This document shows positions 2-8,837 of a stretch of DNA of 34,219 bases, one piece after another (position 1 is the stretch's first letter; each line of letters opens with the position of its first letter). Source of the DNA: Rickettsiales bacterium. GTDB lineage: Bacteria > Pseudomonadota > Alphaproteobacteria > Rickettsiales > Rickettsiaceae. The stretch is taken from NCBI GenBank assembly GCA_003963235.1, contig RXKF01000085.1:1-34219 (forward strand). The letters run 5' to 3'. Under the pieces are notes generated by a model. It was not told the DNA's origin, searched no databases, and saw only the letters and a program-made list of their open reading frames with translations. The position numbers were made by a program, and so were the translations under genes.

Positions 2-1735
2 AATACTACAGATTCATCCAGATCAGCAAATCAAGGAGCTGAAACTGCTTGGAAAGCTGCAACTCCAAAAGGTATGAATAAAGATAACATTAACAACAAC
101 AGAACAGACACTGTAAAAAATAAAATTGAAAATGATAAATTAAAGCAGAGTGATCCATCTAAAACAGATAATGTTGAAGGCAAAGAACAAAATGCTGCAA
201 ATCAAAAAGGGTTGGAAAAAGGTAAAACAACTGCTACAGATTTATTTAAAGTTGCAAAAGAAGGTAATGATATTGGTGGCAAAGCTGCAACTCCAAAAGG
301 TATGAATAAAGATAACATTAACAACAACAGAACAGACACTGTAAAAAATAAAATTGAAAATGATAAATTAAAGCATAATGATCCATCTAAAACAGATAAT
401 GTTGAAGTCAAAGAACAAAATGCTGCAAATCAAAAAGAGTCAGAAAAAGGTAAAACAACTGCTACAGATTTATTTGAATCTGCAAAGAAAGGTTCTGCGA
501 ACGAGTTGGGTTCTAAGGGTTTGAAAAATCTAAATGAGAAAAATATTGAGGCAGCTAAAGAAGATATTGCAAGAATTAATGAACAAATAAAAGAAATTAA
601 AACAGCAAAGGGAGAGAGAAATACAAGCAGTGAAGATGTAAGAACAAATACTATCAAAAATAAAATTGAAAATGATAAATTAAAGCAGAATGATCCATCT
701 AAAACAGCTGATTTTGAAGGCAAAGAACAAAATGCTGTAGATCAAAAAGGGTTGGAAAAAGGTAAAACAACTGCTACAGATTTATTTGAATCTGCAAAGA
801 AAAGCTCTGAAATACCGGCGAACGAGGTGGGGGCTAAGGATTCGAAAAATCTAAATAAGAATAATATTGAGGCAACTAAAGAAGATGTTGTGGGAATTAA
901 TAAACAAATAGAAGAAGCTAAAATAGCAAGACGAGAGAAAAATAAAGGTAGTGAAGATGCAAGAACAAATACTATAGACAATAAAGTAAAACATGATGAT
1001 CTACCAAAAATAGATAAGACTAACCAAGATACACAAGACTCAGCTAAGCAAAATGTTGCAACAGATAGACAAGAATTACCGAGTGAGGACAATGCCAGAA
1101 CAAATACTGTAAAAAAGGAAATTGATAATAAATTAAAGCAGAATGATCCTTCCAAGACAGACAATATTGAAGAAAATAGACAAAATAATTCAATTAATAA
1201 ACAAGATTCATCTGATCAAAGTAGTAAATTTGAAAGAACAAATACTATAGACAATAGAGAAAAGCAGAAGAATCCATTCGAACCAAGGAATGTTGAAGAA
1301 AGTAGACAAAATGCAGCACCGCCTACACAAGAACCAGCTAAGCAAGATACACAAAATGCTGCAACAAATAACAGAGAACTAACTAATGAAGATAGTAGGG
1401 TAAAAAATGATGATTCATTAAAAACAAATGATGTTAAAGGTAATGAACAAGGTGCTGCGATAAATAGGCAAGAACCAGCTAAGAAAAATGCTGCAGGTGA
1501 TAAACAAAATGTTACACCGCCTACACAAGAGCTCTCTAATAAACAGAATAATGTTGATGATAAAACACTCGGAAAGCATAATCAAAATAAGAATGAAAAA
1601 GATTTAAATAAAGCGCAGCCAACTAAAGAATTAAATAATCATCAACCTGAAAATACAAATGTAATTGAAAAATCAAAGGCCAAAGTGACTAGAAGAGATT
1701 CTACAAAATTAAAAAATAAAGGAAATGATGATTAA
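2..1735 (+). CDS. Low-complexity repeat protein, C-terminal part (5' end outside window), next to virB6
   Basis: The frame is open from base 2. The first ATG inside the window (74) lies in the middle of a repeated unit, so it is almost certainly not the start; the gene begins upstream. The visible 577 codons are very rich in Asn, Lys, Asp, Glu and Gln, with no Cys, almost no aromatic residues and no membrane segment, so the product is probably disordered. It contains near-identical 76-codon repeats and many shorter degenerate echoes such as RTNTI/V-x-NK and NDPSKTDN. It overlaps the next gene by 11 bases, which implies co-transcription and perhaps coupled translation. In Rickettsiales several virB6 paralogues lie in tandem, and some carry long hydrophilic repetitive C-terminal tails; I infer that this is the tail of an upstream VirB6 paralogue. 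It could instead be a separate secreted repeat protein, because the membrane part is not visible here. Confidence 0.75.
   Translation, partial: NTTDSSRSANQGAETAWKAATPKGMNKDNINNNRTDTVKNKIENDKLKQSDPSKTDNVEGKEQNAANQKGLEKGKTTATDLFKVAKEGNDIGGKAATPKGMNKDNINNNRTDTVKNKIENDKLKHNDPSKTDNVEVKEQNAANQKESEKGKTTATDLFESAKKGSANELGSKGLKNLNEKNIEAAKEDIARINEQIKEIKTAKGERNTSSEDVRTNTIKNKIENDKLKQNDPSKTADFEGKEQNAVDQKGLEKGKTTATDLFESAKKSSEIPANEVGAKDSKNLNKNNIEATKEDVVGINKQIEEAKIARREKNKGSEDARTNTIDNKVKHDDLPKIDKTNQDTQDSAKQNVATDRQELPSEDNARTNTVKKEIDNKLKQNDPSKTDNIEENRQNNSINKQDSSDQSSKFERTNTIDNREKQKNPFEPRNVEESRQNAAPPTQEPAKQDTQNAATNNRELTNEDSRVKNDDSLKTNDVKGNEQGAAINRQEPAKKNAAGDKQNVTPPTQELSNKQNNVDDKTLGKHNQNKNEKDLNKAQPTKELNNHQPENTNVIEKSKAKVTRRDSTKLKNKGNDD
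53..508 (+). repeat. Two tandem 228-bp coding repeats, with a third diverged copy downstream
   Basis: Copy 1 starts at base 53 (aaagctgcaactccaaaagg) and copy 2 at base 281, exactly 228 bp (76 codons) later. They are nearly identical over about 200 bases, with a few substitutions (for example cagagt versus cataat, and the triplets near 421-450), then diverge. A third copy of the core begins near 640 (taaaattgaaaatgataaat at 661), displaced by 312 bp because about 28 codons are inserted. A shorter fourth echo lies near 1110-1160. The multiple-of-three period keeps the frame, so copy-number change would lengthen or shorten the protein without breaking it. Confidence 0.85.
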
Positions 1736-4343
1736 AAATCGGCTCATTATATTAATATTATTATTACTTGCTAGCTGCTCTGGTGATAGATGTATTGATG
1801 CTGATGATTTTGGGCATGCAAAATTCATTGTTTCATCAAGGTATGATGCTCAAGAATTAGATGGTCAAGTAGGGGATAATCAAGTAGCTCCATGGCTTAA
1901 TTCTGATTTTCGTATTAATGGTCGTCCTCTGACGGTTTCTGTCAGAGGCTGGGAATATGGTGTGGATGTCAATACTGTTTCGGAAGTTTCTGCATGGTGT
2001 CCGTGGTTTGGAACTAGTAAAGAAGCGAATAAATTATCAGATATTTGTGTTAGGTTAACTGAGTGCATGTTTGCTGATGATACGATGTGTAGTACAGGTC
2101 CTGATGCAGCAATTATGAATGCTCCGTGCTTACTTAAAAAAGGAGTCGGATTATATACATTAATAGCAGAAAAAGAGAGCGATCCAAATTTAACAAAGCA
2201 AACTCAAATTGACCCACTTGGTATAGTTTTTCATGTTGGAGAAAAAACTCCTGATTATGCAATGTACGAAGTAGATAAAAATGGAAATTTACGAGAAACT
2301 GGAGGTAGAGTTTATCATTTTGTATCTGAAGAAGAAAAGCTTCAATATATGGGTAGTAAAGTATATTTTAAAATAGCGGATAAATTTTATGATGATAATA
2401 ATGGTCAATATAAAGTAATTGTTAAGTCTGGAATTTCAAGAGTTAGTCCAGATCCAGTCACATATGCAGTAAAATTAGTCAAAGATTATATATTTGGTAC
2501 TGAAGGTAGACAAGGTGTTGTTAAAGATCTATATCTGGGTGTAGTTAATAACCCTGGATATAAATCAGCTGTTTCAGCAATAATAACATTATATATAATG
2601 TTAACAGGTTTATCATATCTGATGGGCAATATAAAAATGACTCAAACAGAGTTGATTGTTCGAGTTACAAAAATTGCAATAGTTTCAGCATTACTGAATT
2701 CGCAATATAGTTGGAGTTTTTTCAATGATTATTTATTTGTATATTTTGTTGGAGGAGCTGATCAAATTTTAAATATAATTATGGAAGCAGGAGCAACTGG
2801 TCCTGGTGCTCCTGGGATTATGGCAATGATGATTGCGCCTCAAACTTTCTCAAAATTAATCTCGATGCTGTTTGTTGACTGGCTTGGCCTGCCATATATT
2901 ATCTTGTTTTTTATAGCCATGTGCTTGGTTATTATCATATTTGTTCAATCAGCTGTGATTTACTTAAGTGCACTTATAGCTATAAGCCTTCTTCTCATAA
3001 TGGCACCAATTTTTATTTGCTTTTTACTATTTGAGTTTACTAAATCATTTTTTGAAAATTGGCTTAAGCAATTACTATCTTATGCTGTACAACCAATTAT
3101 ATTATTTACAGGCTTAATTTTTATTTCAATGTTGATCAGGCATGAATTATATGCATCTCTTGGATTTAGTGTATGCAGATATAATTTCTTAACTATGTCA
3201 ACAATGAATCCAGTAGATAGCACGACATCTTCTGTATTTGATGCAAAAACTCAGGATTCGTTAAATGGTTTAACTGATTCAATATTTTCATGGTGGTTTC
3301 CACAGCAAATGATTGGAACTAATTTCTCGCGTGAGCTTAAGTCAATACCTATTCCAATTGATCACTTTGAAAATGAGGTTTTGCTTGGTGACAATTCCCA
3401 AAGTAACTTCTGTGAAGCGTATGGTTGTATTGGTCAAAGATATCCAGATTTACCATTCTTAGATCCAGTTAAAGATATAAGGAGATTGACTCAATTTTGG
3501 AGTGGAAAGTTTGTTCAGTTGGATGGGTTATTCTTAATTTTTGCTGCAATTTATCTGTTGCATAAATTTAATGCGCTGACGGTTAAAGCTGCACAATTCC
3601 TGACTGGAACTGAAATGAATTCAGTAAAATTAAATAAAATTGGCAATGAAGCCGTCTCAGACTTGATGAGAAATGCTTCGATGGTAACTAACCCAATTAA
3701 GAGTCAAATACAAAGCATGCCTAAGCGCGCTCTTAATTTAGCATTAGGTAAAGAAAGGGTGCAAGCTATATCTGATAAACTTACTTCCATGACACCTTCA
3801 TATTTAATTGATCAAGCTCGTGTTAAATCATTAAAAAAAGAAGCTTTTGCACCAACTGCTAATAAAGCAATTCTGAAGGCAGTAACAGCTAAGACTGGAT
3901 TAACGCAAGAGTCAGTAAATAAAACAGCAATTGCCGATTATAAGAATGCATTGAAGAAAGAGCTGCTTAAGGATATTCCAACGACTCTACCTCAAGCAAA
4001 AAGAGAAAAAATTGCCGAGAAATCTGCTACTATACTGGCAAAAAAAGATCTTTCCAAAACGAGAGATGAATTTTCTCAAATTAAATTTGGTAAGAATTTT
4101 GTTGATCTTCCAAATGCAGAGAAAATTAAAGTGAATAGGGTAGTAAATAATATAGAGCTAAATGCGCTTGCTAAAGACGCCGCTCAAGCAAGAAAATTCC
4201 GTGAGGCATATGTTGATGCTTACTCGAATTTATCTAATAAAGGTGTTGGTGTTGTTGGCAAACATGTTAAACCTGTTAGAGTATTTCAAAAATTAAAGGA
4301 TGATATTAGAATTTTGGAAGAGTCAAAAAAACCAAAGAAATAA
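1725..4343 (+). CDS. VirB6/TrbL-family type IV secretion protein (RvhB6-like lipoprotein)
   Basis: This 872-residue protein is an inner-membrane channel component of the Rickettsiales vir homologue T4SS. Residues 1-18 form a lipoprotein signal peptide: basic NR, a run of I/L, then lipobox L15-A-S-C18. Residues 19-175 form a Cys-rich region typical of rickettsial RvhB6 proteins (CIDADDFGHAKF, NGRPLTV, SAWCPWFG, NAPCLLKKGVGLYTLIA). The VirB6/TrbL core has hydrophobic segments near 281-301, 311-325, 386-437 (two or three helices), 452-472 and 598-615. The remaining 250 residues are Lys-rich and hydrophilic, probably cytoplasmic. The start ATG at 1725 (or the adjacent one at 1728) overlaps the previous gene by 11 bases. 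The paralogue letter within the cluster cannot be assigned. No later vir gene follows, so this looks like the end of the cluster. The family assignment rests on remembered family motifs. Confidence 0.9.
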   Translation: MMIKNRLIILILLLLASCSGDRCIDADDFGHAKFIVSSRYDAQELDGQVGDNQVAPWLNSDFRINGRPLTVSVRGWEYGVDVNTVSEVSAWCPWFGTSKEANKLSDICVRLTECMFADDTMCSTGPDAAIMNAPCLLKKGVGLYTLIAEKESDPNLTKQTQIDPLGIVFHVGEKTPDYAMYEVDKNGNLRETGGRVYHFVSEEEKLQYMGSKVYFKIADKFYDDNNGQYKVIVKSGISRVSPDPVTYAVKLVKDYIFGTEGRQGVVKDLYLGVVNNPGYKSAVSAIITLYIMLTGLSYLMGNIKMTQTELIVRVTKIAIVSALLNSQYSWSFFNDYLFVYFVGGADQILNIIMEAGATGPGAPGIMAMMIAPQTFSKLISMLFVDWLGLPYIILFFIAMCLVIIIFVQSAVIYLSALIAISLLLIMAPIFICFLLFEFTKSFFENWLKQLLSYAVQPIILFTGLIFISMLIRHELYASLGFSVCRYNFLTMSTMNPVDSTTSSVFDAKTQDSLNGLTDSIFSWWFPQQMIGTNFSRELKSIPIPIDHFENEVLLGDNSQSNFCEAYGCIGQRYPDLPFLDPVKDIRRLTQFWSGKFVQLDGLFLIFAAIYLLHKFNALTVKAAQFLTGTEMNSVKLNKIGNEAVSDLMRNASMVTNPIKSQIQSMPKRALNLALGKERVQAISDKLTSMTPSYLIDQARVKSLKKEAFAPTANKAILKAVTAKTGLTQESVNKTAIADYKNALKKELLKDIPTTLPQAKREKIAEKSATILAKKDLSKTRDEFSQIKFGKNFVDLPNAEKIKVNRVVNNIELNALAKDAAQARKFREAYVDAYSNLSNKGVGVVGKHVKPVRVFQKLKDDIRILEESKKPKK

Positions 4344-5963: not shown

Positions 5964-8837
5964 ATGAACATCGATATTGCAATTGTTGTATTCTTTTCTC
6001 TGCTTACTTTAACTGTTGGTATACTAACTGGCAAAAAAGTTGCAAATATTAGAGAATTTGCGTTAGGCGGTAGAAATTTTAGTACTACAACATTAGTAGC
6101 CACCATTGTTGCCACTTGGGCAACAGGAGGAGACTTTGACATACTTGTAAATGAATCATATGAACATGGTTTATATTTTATAATATCTGGTTTGCTAGGG
6201 ATGTTAACAGTTTTATCTATAATAGGCATAGTTTTTGTACCGCGTATGGGTGAGTTTCTCGGAGATCTCAGCATTGCAGAATCAATGGGCAAAATGTATG
6301 GAGATAAAGTAAAATTAATTACTGTATTTGCGGGTTGTATTGGAACTATTGGAGTAATTGCTGCCCAATTTATAGTGGCGGGTAAATTACTAGAATATTC
6401 TTTGGAAGTTCCCAAATTTTATGGCATAATGAGTGGAGCATTAATTGTTACAATTTACTCCTCGTTAGGTGGTATTAGATCGGTTACTTTTACTGATGTA
6501 ATTCAATTTTTCACCTTTGGGGTTGTTATGCCAACTTTGGCATTCTTTATATATGGTACATTCGGTAATGCAGATCAAATCTTAAGTGTTATTTCTAGTA
6601 ATGATAATTTCAAGTTAAGTAAAGTATTTGATTTAAGTTCAGAAAAATCTTTATATTTTATATTTTTATTTTTATTCATGGCAATTCCATCATTTGATCC
6701 AGCAATTTTTCAAAGAATTTCTATGGCTAAGAATGTATTTCAAGCAAGAAAAGCTTTTGTTATTGCGGCGTTTGTTTATACTTTTTTGGGATTGACAATT
6801 GCTTGGATCGGGGTTCTTGCGTTGGTAGCTTATCCAAATTCTGTGCCAACGGAAATGGCACAGCGTGTTCTTATGGATTATTCTTTTACAGGGTTAAAGG
6901 GATTAACAATAGCTGGAATTTTAGCAATGATGATGTCATCTGCTGACTCCTTTATTAATTCTACGTCAATTCTATTTACTAATGATTTTTGTAAGGCTGC
7001 TGGCATTAAATTAAAGGATGAGCTCAAAACTTCTAGAATTATATCTTTTGTATTAGGATTTTTTGCATTTCTTATTGCTTTGTATAGCAGCAGTTTACTT
7101 AATTTGATGATTAAAACAAAATCATTTTACATGCCAGTAGTATCAGTTCCATTTATGTTTGCAATTTTCGGCTTTAGAAGCAGTACTAAGTCAGTTTTAA
7201 TTGGCATGGCGGGTGGAGTTATTACTACTGCTTTTTTCGAAATTTTTATGGGAGACAGGATTATCAGCGCTATACCTGGTATGTTTGCAAATATGGTTTT
7301 CCTTTTTGGTAGTCACTATATTTTAAAACAAGAAGGTGGCTGGGTTGGTATTAAAGATTATGGACCATTAAATATTATTCGTGCACAAAGAAAAAAGAAT
7401 TTTAATAATATTATTTCTGCTGTTAAAAACTTTAATATAAAACAATTTTGTATTGTAAATTCACCTAAAGAAGAAAGTGCGTATTTATACTTAGGTATTT
7501 TTGCTCTATTTTCAACTTACTTTTCTTCTTATACGCTGCCGCAAACTGCTACAGAAAACTATCATCTACTAATTAGCTTTATTTATCCACTAGTATTATT
7601 TACTGCAACTACATTAATCAGTTCGCCATTATGGGTGGGGTATGTGAAGAGATTTTATATAATTTCTTATATTTGGGTATTTGCTCTATTTTATATATTA
7701 GTTTGCGTAGGATTTATTCAAATATTAATTAGTGATTTTAGTAAATTTCAGCTAATGACTTTCATGCTGAATTTTGTTGTATTATCAATTTTGGTTCGTT
7801 GGCAAGCTGCTGTATTAATTATGGTTGTTGGTTGTTTTGTCAGCTTTCAGTTTTTTGAACTATATACTGGGAAAGATGTTTTAGCTGAAAATATTGGAAA
7901 TATTCAATTCACAGTTGCATATTTATTGATGCTAATGAGTTCAGTGTTAATTGCCTTTTTTAAGCCAAAGCAGGAATATGTTGAAGCCACTGAAATTGCT
8001 GTCGGTACGCTCAATAATGAAGTAACTTTTTTAAATAGTGAAGTTGGCACGCGCGAAGTTAAAATTAATAGTTTAAGCAATGAAGTGATTGATTTAAATG
8101 ATAAAATTGATTTTTTTCATAATCGTATATCTGATCAGGCAAAAGAAATTGAGCGTCTTGGTCAAACTTCGCAGCGAATATTGAATAATCTTAATCATGA
8201 ATTGCGCCTTCCTGTTGGTAATGTTATGAATTTTTCTGACATGTTGATTGAAAGCCTGCACAAGAAAGGCGACAAATATGTGAATGAACTGGCTAAGGAA
8301 GTGCATAATAATTCCACTAGATTATCAAGCATGATTCTGAATATGCTAGATTTGGCAATGCTTGATGTGAAAAAAATTCAGCTTGATAGGAAAACAATGA
8401 ATCTTGGTGAGCTGGTGAAAGAACGTGTTGAGAGATGTCGTAAGGTTTACTTAGGCGAAAAGTCAATTGATTTTAAACTAGATATTCAGCCAGAAATATT
8501 AATTTCTATTGATCCAAATTACATCAGACAAACAGTTGATAATTTGATAATCAATGCAATAAATTTTAGTGAAAAAGGTTTGATTGAGGTAAATGTATTT
8601 AGTAACGGAACCGCTGCGATATTTACGGTAAAAGATCAGGGAGTTGGAATACCTGCAACTGAGTTATATGATATATTCACGCCATTTAAAATGGGTTCAA
8701 ACACCCAATCTAAAGCTGAAGGAAGAGGAGTTGGTCTTGCATTATGTAAATCTGCGGTTGAGGCTCATAGAGGAACTATCACCGCGCAAAGTAAAGGCAC
8801 TGGTGCGTTATTTACCGTGACCTTGCCTTTTAAATGA
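5964..8837 (+). CDS. Sodium:solute symporter-like sensor histidine kinase (CbrA-type architecture)
   Basis: This 957-residue fusion starts with a sodium:solute symporter (SSS/PutP-like) domain at about 1-455. It has around 12 hydrophobic segments, the family GGR-F motif (35-38) and MMSSADSF-I-NSTS (323-335) in the Na+-site helix. A second membrane block (about 505-665) has around five or six helices. A coiled coil of about 55 residues (676-735) leads to the HisKA H-box NHELRLP with phospho-acceptor H745. The ATPase domain has an N-box (N860, N864), G1 DQGVGIP (891-897), F-box FTPF and G2 GRGVGLAL (920-927), so all kinase boxes look intact. No PAS or receiver domain is seen. CbrA of Pseudomonas has a similar overall plan. 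Ligand and response regulator are unknown; no regulator gene is adjacent. It may sense or transport a host metabolite. Confidence 0.92.
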   Translation: MNIDIAIVVFFSLLTLTVGILTGKKVANIREFALGGRNFSTTTLVATIVATWATGGDFDILVNESYEHGLYFIISGLLGMLTVLSIIGIVFVPRMGEFLGDLSIAESMGKMYGDKVKLITVFAGCIGTIGVIAAQFIVAGKLLEYSLEVPKFYGIMSGALIVTIYSSLGGIRSVTFTDVIQFFTFGVVMPTLAFFIYGTFGNADQILSVISSNDNFKLSKVFDLSSEKSLYFIFLFLFMAIPSFDPAIFQRISMAKNVFQARKAFVIAAFVYTFLGLTIAWIGVLALVAYPNSVPTEMAQRVLMDYSFTGLKGLTIAGILAMMMSSADSFINSTSILFTNDFCKAAGIKLKDELKTSRIISFVLGFFAFLIALYSSSLLNLMIKTKSFYMPVVSVPFMFAIFGFRSSTKSVLIGMAGGVITTAFFEIFMGDRIISAIPGMFANMVFLFGSHYILKQEGGWVGIKDYGPLNIIRAQRKKNFNNIISAVKNFNIKQFCIVNSPKEESAYLYLGIFALFSTYFSSYTLPQTATENYHLLISFIYPLVLFTATTLISSPLWVGYVKRFYIISYIWVFALFYILVCVGFIQILISDFSKFQLMTFMLNFVVLSILVRWQAAVLIMVVGCFVSFQFFELYTGKDVLAENIGNIQFTVAYLLMLMSSVLIAFFKPKQEYVEATEIAVGTLNNEVTFLNSEVGTREVKINSLSNEVIDLNDKIDFFHNRISDQAKEIERLGQTSQRILNNLNHELRLPVGNVMNFSDMLIESLHKKGDKYVNELAKEVHNNSTRLSSMILNMLDLAMLDVKKIQLDRKTMNLGELVKERVERCRKVYLGEKSIDFKLDIQPEILISIDPNYIRQTVDNLIINAINFSEKGLIEVNVFSNGTAAIFTVKDQGVGIPATELYDIFTPFKMGSNTQSKAEGRGVGLALCKSAVEAHRGTITAQSKGTGALFTVTLPFK

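Follow-up and report, generated by a model that had tools for sequence, protein, structure and literature searches.

The stretch of DNA analysed here (the window) comprises the 34,219 nucleotides of contig RXKF01000085.1 from a Rickettsiales bacterium of the family Rickettsiaceae (assembly GCA_003963235.1). Between genes named by inspection as those for citrate synthase and aspartyl-tRNA synthetase, it carries a gene whose product joins a sodium/solute symporter (SSS/SLC5) to a histidine kinase through an additional block of membrane helices (Table 1). The initial annotation had described a symporter-histidine kinase fusion in a reduced Rickettsiaceae genome, and the fusion was borne out by Pfam matches to SSF (residues 32-418, E 5e-18, 65.6 bits against a cut-off of 22.8), HisKA (737-801, E 5e-6, its 26.9 bits being equal to the curated cut-off) and HATPase_c (850-956, E 2.9e-21). 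The product is a genuine symporter-kinase transceptor. An AlphaFold model of the 957-aa protein, built with 44 sequences (mean pLDDT 77.6, pTM 0.59), predicted the symporter helices, six helices from residue 505, the last of them continuous over 647-705, a DHp hairpin (715-801) and the catalytic domain. The surprise lies in how the family is inherited: diverse sensors carry homogenised outputs, the two are joined where the membrane block ends, and the type of output has been swapped in relatives.

The N-terminal half was assigned to the SSS/SLC5 family by the SSF match above its cut-off, the SLC5 fold and the Ser/Thr pair of the sodium site. The modelled symporter part matched CHT1 (Z 44.0, root-mean-square deviation (rmsd) 2.6, 448 residues aligned) and SiaT (Z 38.5, rmsd 2.9, 450 aligned), and it had the fold and the sodium-site residues in common with CHT1, SiaT and vSGLT, although it was only ~17-22% identical to them. 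Loss of the sodium site had been named in the initial annotation as evidence against transport. No such loss was seen in a 44-row alignment (A2), whose rows were chosen as kinase-type: S325 and S329 were present in 44/44 rows, Ser or Thr at position 326 in 43/44 and D328 in 42/44, and S325-S326 fell on the serines that we take to form the sodium site of vSGLT. Furthermore, the motifs FQR and SFYxP were nearly invariant in the symporter halves. Judged from these residues, transport by this half seems somewhat more probably retained than lost. Transporter folds have precedents as sensors, and the protein might be a pure receptor whose symporter fold senses a solute or sodium after the loss of transport; the near invariance of the sodium-site residues and of both motifs speaks against this, and such a receptor is very unlikely. 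Choline was considered as a substrate from the match to CHT1 and dropped; it is not predicted because most of the residues that we take to be the CHT1 choline cage were not kept in the alignment.

The C-terminal half had the H, N, G1, F and G2 boxes of HisKA kinases together with the DHp and CA fold. All of the boxes, reported as complete in the initial annotation, were intact and kept in 39-44 of the 44 rows of A2 (H745, G893, F905, F908, G922 and G924 in 44/44 each; N864 in 43/44, N860 in 41/44, D891 in 40/44 and G895 in 39/44), and the loss of kinase residues in relatives, put forward there as an argument against signalling, was not seen in these kinase-type rows. The kinase part of the model resembled HK853 (TM-score by target 0.83) and DivL (Z 24.3, rmsd 3.1, 222 aligned). 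Pfam matches to Csm1_N and DUF16 at 670-744 (E 0.02-0.04) were taken as coiled-coil noise. Purifying selection on the symporter-kinases was shown by computation: the ratio of non-synonymous to synonymous substitution rates (dN/dS) was 0.06-0.44 in six pairs of relatives and the pair of the window gene with L002 (here and below, L and G numbers denote loci and genomes), being at most 0.23 in 12 of the 13 comparisons, with one more saturated. The conserved residues indicate that this half is probably a working kinase. A protein that is a transporter first, taking up a host metabolite, with a kinase that gates transport by feedback or decays as a passenger, would agree with sodium-site conservation in 42-44 of 44 rows, with the existence of kinase-dead relatives and with the internal stops present in some family copies. 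This is unlikely in view of H745, kept in all 44 rows (chosen as kinase-type), and of the dN/dS of the kinase half, which was 0.08-0.21 in five of the six comparisons giving a value (0.44 in the sixth, with one saturated).

Between the two halves of the transceptor, the model predicted six helices (505-524, 534-556, 564-589, 594-610, 613-635 and 647 onward), which were hydrophobic with at most two charges each. These helices (505-669) agreed with the extra membrane region that the initial annotation had placed at 505-665. A sequence search of the PDB with residues 493-679 gave no match at E up to 1, and most rows of the fold search covered residues 1-472. The earlier claim that a kinase does not need this region was not supported by a profile of the block, which matched kinases without a symporter: L229 (G017, 409 aa, E 7e-12), which overlaps the symporter gene directly preceding it, and, with weaker E-values, L218 (G022, 428 aa, E 2e-6), which adjoins a receiver gene, and L215 (G019, 635 aa, E 1e-6), which has a kinase and a REC domain behind the block; membrane-segment E-values near 1e-6 may partly reflect composition. 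L218 also matched the RegB/PrrB-type kinases of NCBIfam (E 2.5e-7, residues 105-408), mostly from its kinase part. Split forms, in which a symporter open reading frame (ORF) is followed by a block-plus-kinase ORF, were present in G003 (L042) and G014 (L071). Since the block is present in kinases without a symporter, it was assigned to the kinase side; it would likeliest be the kinase's native membrane sensor or transmission domain, in front of which the symporter was added.

A total of 99 non-redundant symporter-bearing proteins of at least 780 aa were collected and classed with home-made profiles. Block and kinase were detected in 71 of them, block, kinase and REC in one, a kinase with no detected block in six (three with REC), a kinase-dead module in 16 (four with an HD domain) and neither output in five. 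Three of the 71 had kinase segments below 190 aa and were left out, and the other 68 were compared. Mean identity was 43.6% for the sensor (symporter and block) and 59.1% for the kinase in the 113 within-genome pairs, against 39.5% and 42.6% in the 2165 between-genome pairs, and none of 2000 shuffles of the genome labels matched this contrast. A contrast of more than 25 points was found in 35 within-genome pairs. Among the 25 of these that were printed, 24 had sensors 34-46% identical and kinases 70-99% identical, and 24 had their best single breakpoint between 13 residues before and 54 residues after the end of the membrane block. At the DNA level, identity rose across the joint from 53% to 98% in G018 and from 52% to 97% in Candidatus (Ca.) Megaira, the paralogues of these two genomes being overall ~52% identical before the joint and 96-99% after it; the corresponding values for the two other copies in the window's own genome were 57% and 73%. 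The alike tract was confined to the cassette in seven of the nine flank-aligned pairs, ending from 70 bp before to 1 bp after the stop codon; of the other two, one tract ran 137 bp past the stop, and L068/L064 was a longer duplication starting upstream of the gene.

The window gene had different nearest relatives in its two halves. The nearest sensor was that of L002 (G003, same genus), a locus that runs off its contig near its end; it was 63.6% identical in the sensor and 31.0% in the kinase, with the breakpoint at residue 678 (64.0% before, 30.6% after). The nearest kinase was that of L049 (G006), with 67.5% identity in the kinase and 36.2% in the sensor and the breakpoint at residue 724 (36.6% before, 67.4% after). 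Trees were built from 40 of the 68 proteins. Genome labels changed 28 times on the sensor tree (27.7 in shuffles; 139/200 as low) and 20 times on the kinase tree (27.8 in shuffles; 0/200 as low). In a further kinase tree, soluble kinases were placed among the near kin at a node that was an open fork. The nearest neighbour came from the same genome for 30/52 kinases and 11/52 sensors. Approximately unbiased (AU) tests, for groups chosen after the trees were seen, rejected a clade of the window gene and L002 on the kinase data (p 1.2e-59) and, on the sensor data, both a single clade of the 16 proteins whose kinase is of the window's type (p 1.2e-4) and a single clade of the three copies of its own genome (p 2.3e-5). 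Additionally, the concerted evolution of the kinases was explicit between Ca. Megaira (G039) and G018: orthologues of these genomes had dS of 0.049 and 0.165 in the sensor and 0.226 and 0.281 in the kinase, and paralogous kinases of one genome had dS of 0.116, 0.151 and 0.027 on sensors with dS of ~1.5-2.0. We conclude with high confidence that the sequence after about residue 680 is an exchangeable cassette, joined on at the point where the membrane block ends.

A dedicated two-component system of the CbrA/CbrB kind would instead consist of one symporter-kinase with a private receiver, and the kinases of a genome would be alike through recent duplication. Such a system would have CbrA as its precedent in the passages used of a published account (PMC13022988), as well as the CbrA analogy of the initial annotation, and at one locus (L056:15569-18882, G001) a 126-aa single-domain receiver does lie 26 bp downstream of the symporter-kinase. 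Recent duplication is nevertheless disfavoured because it would make both halves alike, contrary to the sensor and kinase identities in 24 of the 25 printed pairs; moreover, by dS the orthologous kinases were more diverged than the paralogous ones. The window itself had no receiver ORF detectable with a home-made receiver profile, as the initial annotation had observed for the neighbourhood. A dedicated system is accordingly considered quite unlikely.

The own genome (1.36 Mb, 88 contigs, 87% complete) gave eight receiver matches. The best candidate partner among them was a 128-aa single-domain receiver beside a soluble histidine kinase (G000:C86; the C86 receiver). The co-occurrence check suggested by the initial annotation gave a divided answer. 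The C86 receiver was found in all 14 same-genus genomes, and a search at E 1e-8 did not detect it in G020 or G021, where the collected copies are without a kinase. The REC domains that follow the kinase on the same chain, in L230 (G017) and in L077, L234 and L235 (G022), were related to it, with a joint group support of only 81/73 (receiver tree read by locus). In genus g35, however, the receiver was absent from all 23 genomes, 15 of which matched the kinase half at E <1e-40, and in genus g4 it was present in 14/16 at E <1e-20, with a kinase-type copy in 2/16 (G090 and G102) among the matches listed; both sets of counts were read from best E-values and ORF lengths. The g35 and g4 genomes broke the case for the C86 receiver as the cognate partner, and this pairing, proposed from sequence, is doubtful. 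Genome G063, a single contig, had 28 matches to the block-plus-kinase query, a number in which other kinases are included and a gene may appear twice. Its receiver matches numbered four, of which three were OmpR-like, CtrA-like and NtrX-like and the fourth was a single-domain receiver next to a kinase of the PAS type. The kinase-type transceptors read in this genome were three full and two short ones, and a sharing of receivers is likely in it. Two of its loci (L278:6482-11953 and L280:1349-6804) held tandem receptor pairs, each with one full and one short (~155 aa) kinase match, in which the sensors were alike within the tandem (79% and 73%) and the kinases alike across the two loci (70% and 68%).

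The initial annotation had viewed the sensor as an exception kept in a genome type that has lost most of them. This did not hold, as the own genome has three full-length copies (contigs 39, 80 and 11) and one symporter-only ORF. Its proposed search of other Rickettsiales for the same architecture was fruitful: matches to the family were found in 34 of 35 related genomes at E 0.001, and the best 80 of 136 candidate stretches were kept as relatives' loci. The 78 named ones came from Rickettsiaceae and Rickettsiales metagenome-assembled genomes (MAGs), Ca. Megaira (CP084576, titled complete), Rickettsia endosymbionts, Phycorickettsia, two Francisellaceae-titled MAGs, one Sphingobacteriaceae-titled MAG and Amoebophilaceae of the Bacteroidota (Ca. 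Amoebophilus). The members on Sphingobacteriaceae- or Francisellaceae-titled contigs (L093, L137 and L144) may reflect transfer or misbinning. The highest copy number among the sequences collected was ten, in G018. The family is expanded in Rickettsiaceae, and the window gene is not a lone survivor. One further ORF of at least 3271 aa (L078:6188-16000, G022), which reaches the end of its stretch, had an N-terminal SSS symporter and no other Pfam match at E 0.1.

The contigs of L106, L108, L119, L121, L128 and L133 ended inside the linker or the kinase half. Such ends are what a cassette acting as an assembly-breaking repeat would produce, and copy numbers in MAGs would then be lower bounds. 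Most of the genomes being MAGs, these repeat-like ends could also suggest that the junctions are binning or assembly artefacts; yet the same pattern was present in the Ca. Megaira chromosome CP084576 (L117 and L135) and in G018 (4 contigs, 99% complete), so that an artefact is exceedingly improbable.

A second kind of output was found in kinase-dead relatives. H745, G922 and G924 were each present in 0/16 rows of an alignment of proteins without kinase boxes (A3), although the model of L154 kept an order of strands and helices like that of a catalytic domain. Four of the six Amoebophilaceae proteins scanned with Pfam (L148, L152, L153 and L154) had a RelA/SpoT-type HD domain at the C-terminal end (HD_4, E 1e-26 to 1e-28; TIGR00691, E 1.6e-42 for L154), with HDxxEDT and KLADRLHNMRT, which we take to be hydrolase motifs, and the model of L154 matched Rel and SpoT structures. 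From matched positions and ORF lengths, nine such fusions were read in G035, five in G036 and one in G038, a Francisellaceae-titled MAG. Stand-alone SpoT-type HD genes of ~200 aa were also found by kinase-dead receptors; four of the six lay tail to tail with them, with few bases between or overlapping. Of the 18 kinase-dead or output-less proteins with the block, four were fused to HD and six had an HD gene within 500 bp, and eight showed neither, two of these having one ~4.2 kb away. Among the 78 kinase-type proteins none was fused or had an HD gene within 500 bp, the only one being 2.6 kb away (Fisher p 3.9e-9, a guide only, as the rows are related and the flanks often cut). A (p)ppGpp synthetase domain was found in 11 of the 14 genomes examined, including both Amoebophilaceae, and not in G037 or in the incomplete drafts G000 and G021.

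Table 1. Features of the symporter-kinase gene in the window and HD-associated loci of relatives.
Feature	Location	Strand	Basis or remark
Whole gene: SSS symporter, six-helix membrane block, histidine kinase	5964..8837	+	957 aa, ATG start
SSS/SLC5 symporter part, aa 1-472	5964..7379	+	Pfam SSF; fold match CHT1, SiaT
Sodium-site motif S325-S326-x-D328-S329, aa 325-329	6936..6950	+	A2 conservation, vSGLT alignment
Six-helix membrane block, aa 501-676	7464..7991	+	Model, helix charges, profile matches in symporter-less kinases
Linker helix / coiled coil, aa 677-724; output cassette starts inside	7992..8135	+	Model, breakpoints
Exchangeable output cassette, ~aa 678-728 to end	7995..8834	+	Identity contrasts, breakpoints, trees, AU tests, dS
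DHp / HisKA domain, aa 725-805	8136..8378	+	Pfam, model
Phospho-acceptor His, H745	8196..8198	+	44/44 rows of A2
HATPase_c / catalytic domain, aa 806-957	8379..8834	+	Pfam, model, fold match
One-chain proteins: symporter, block, dead kinase, HD	L148:460-3825, L152:5986-9324, L153:5100-8567, L154:5983-9345		Amoebophilaceae
Stand-alone SpoT-type HD genes by kinase-dead receptors	L151:2088-2693, L151:8906-9496, L137:3314-3946, L134:4817-5437, L144:5089-5721, L122:6190-6846

These observations are brought together in an account that we regard as on balance probable. The protein would be a transceptor in which the six-helix block reads the transport cycle of the SSS symporter and the coiled coil relays it to the histidine kinase; we infer that a ligand, possibly a host metabolite as the initial annotation had proposed, is transported, that the signal runs in this direction and that the receiver is shared. 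The two halves that make up the family's proteins would have been inherited independently. The sensor half (symporter and block, residue 1 to ~680) would represent old divergent lineages that several genera have in common and that presumably serve different solutes. The output half (~680 to the stop) would be a cassette that gene conversion or recombination copies between paralogues, and hence the kinases of one genome would stay alike. Several symporters of one cell would then phosphorylate the same receiver or receivers, as a nutrient sensor with many inputs and few outputs.

Several points weigh against this account. It was reached by computation alone, the structure model is of moderate quality, and the HisKA match was only just at its cut-off. 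The failure of co-occurrence in g35 disfavours one universal partner. G003 holds two kinase types, so the copies of one genome need not all share a target. In JABSSF the mean kinase identity (48.6%) was not above that of the sensor (49.0%), and 22/52 kinases had their nearest kin in another genome. A contrast of more than 25 points was also present in 107 of the 2165 between-genome pairs; exchange is therefore not limited to within genomes.

The usual expectation for duplicated sensor kinases is divergence, which insulates their pathways. The reverse seems to hold here, with kinase halves kept alike and sensors diverse, and this suggests that many uptake channels report into few shared signals. 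In its widest form, which we put forward only tentatively and hold to be somewhat short of an even chance, the family may be a plug-in receptor system of intracellular bacteria of protists and arthropods, spanning Alphaproteobacteria and Bacteroidota. Variable symporters would be joined, at a fixed point after the last membrane helix, to a constant output homogenised by gene conversion, and two kinds of cassette, a histidine kinase or a dead kinase fused or adjacent to a (p)ppGpp hydrolase, would tie uptake to phosphotransfer or to the stringent alarmone. If so, experiments could address how many host nutrients are monitored by a bacterium whose response regulators are very few, and the SpoT-linked relatives would offer a direct handle on growth control tied to nutrient uptake in obligate intracellular bacteria.

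As for the surroundings of the gene, a Pfam scan of ten other ORFs of the window included leucyl-tRNA synthetase, cytochrome bd subunit I and carboxylase genes and, just before the citrate synthase gene, a VirB6/TrbL-type secretion gene (1725-4343, PF04610, E 4.4e-26). A 553-aa ORF, upstream like the VirB6/TrbL-type gene, was without a Pfam match at E 1e-5.

In comparison with known systems, the portion covered of the open-licence PMC literature yielded neither a kinase-cassette exchange or six-helix block in a symporter-kinase family nor a symporter-SpoT fusion. RelA/SpoT HD hydrolases resemble the output domain of the Amoebophilaceae relatives; the window protein has none, and they were fused or adjacent only to kinase-dead relatives. 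CbrA takes up histidine and signals, and the passages used describe a 13-helix SLC5 part followed by a soluble STAC bundle and a PAS domain (PMC13022988). The likeness to CbrA proposed by the initial annotation stands as an analogy, in that the SLC5-STAC kinases CbrA, CrbS and RpuS also carry, as far as those passages go, an N-terminal SLC5 symporter and a histidine kinase on one chain. It does not extend to membership: at the place of the soluble four-helix STAC bundle of CbrA the window protein has six hydrophobic helices, with no PDB match for that region and no STAC profile searched, and no PAS domain was found before DHp by Pfam at E up to 1. The window family further differs in its expansion, its cassette exchange and the lack of a receiver next door. 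The symporter-kinase fusion as such is already known in Rickettsiales, from the 'PutP' of Orientia tsutsugamushi, which the passages used describe as a symporter with HisKA, HATPase_c and REC, present in 4-8 copies per genome in Rickettsiales-amplified genetic element (RAGE) and inter-RAGE regions, and treat as mobilome cargo, with mention of hydrolase domains fused to other genes (PMC10732058). A membrane block and cassette exchange are not described in those passages. Both proteins, as far as that account was used, are multicopy symporter-kinase fusions, but 'PutP' ends in a REC domain, whereas the window protein has none and its HATPase_c match extends to residue 956 of 957.

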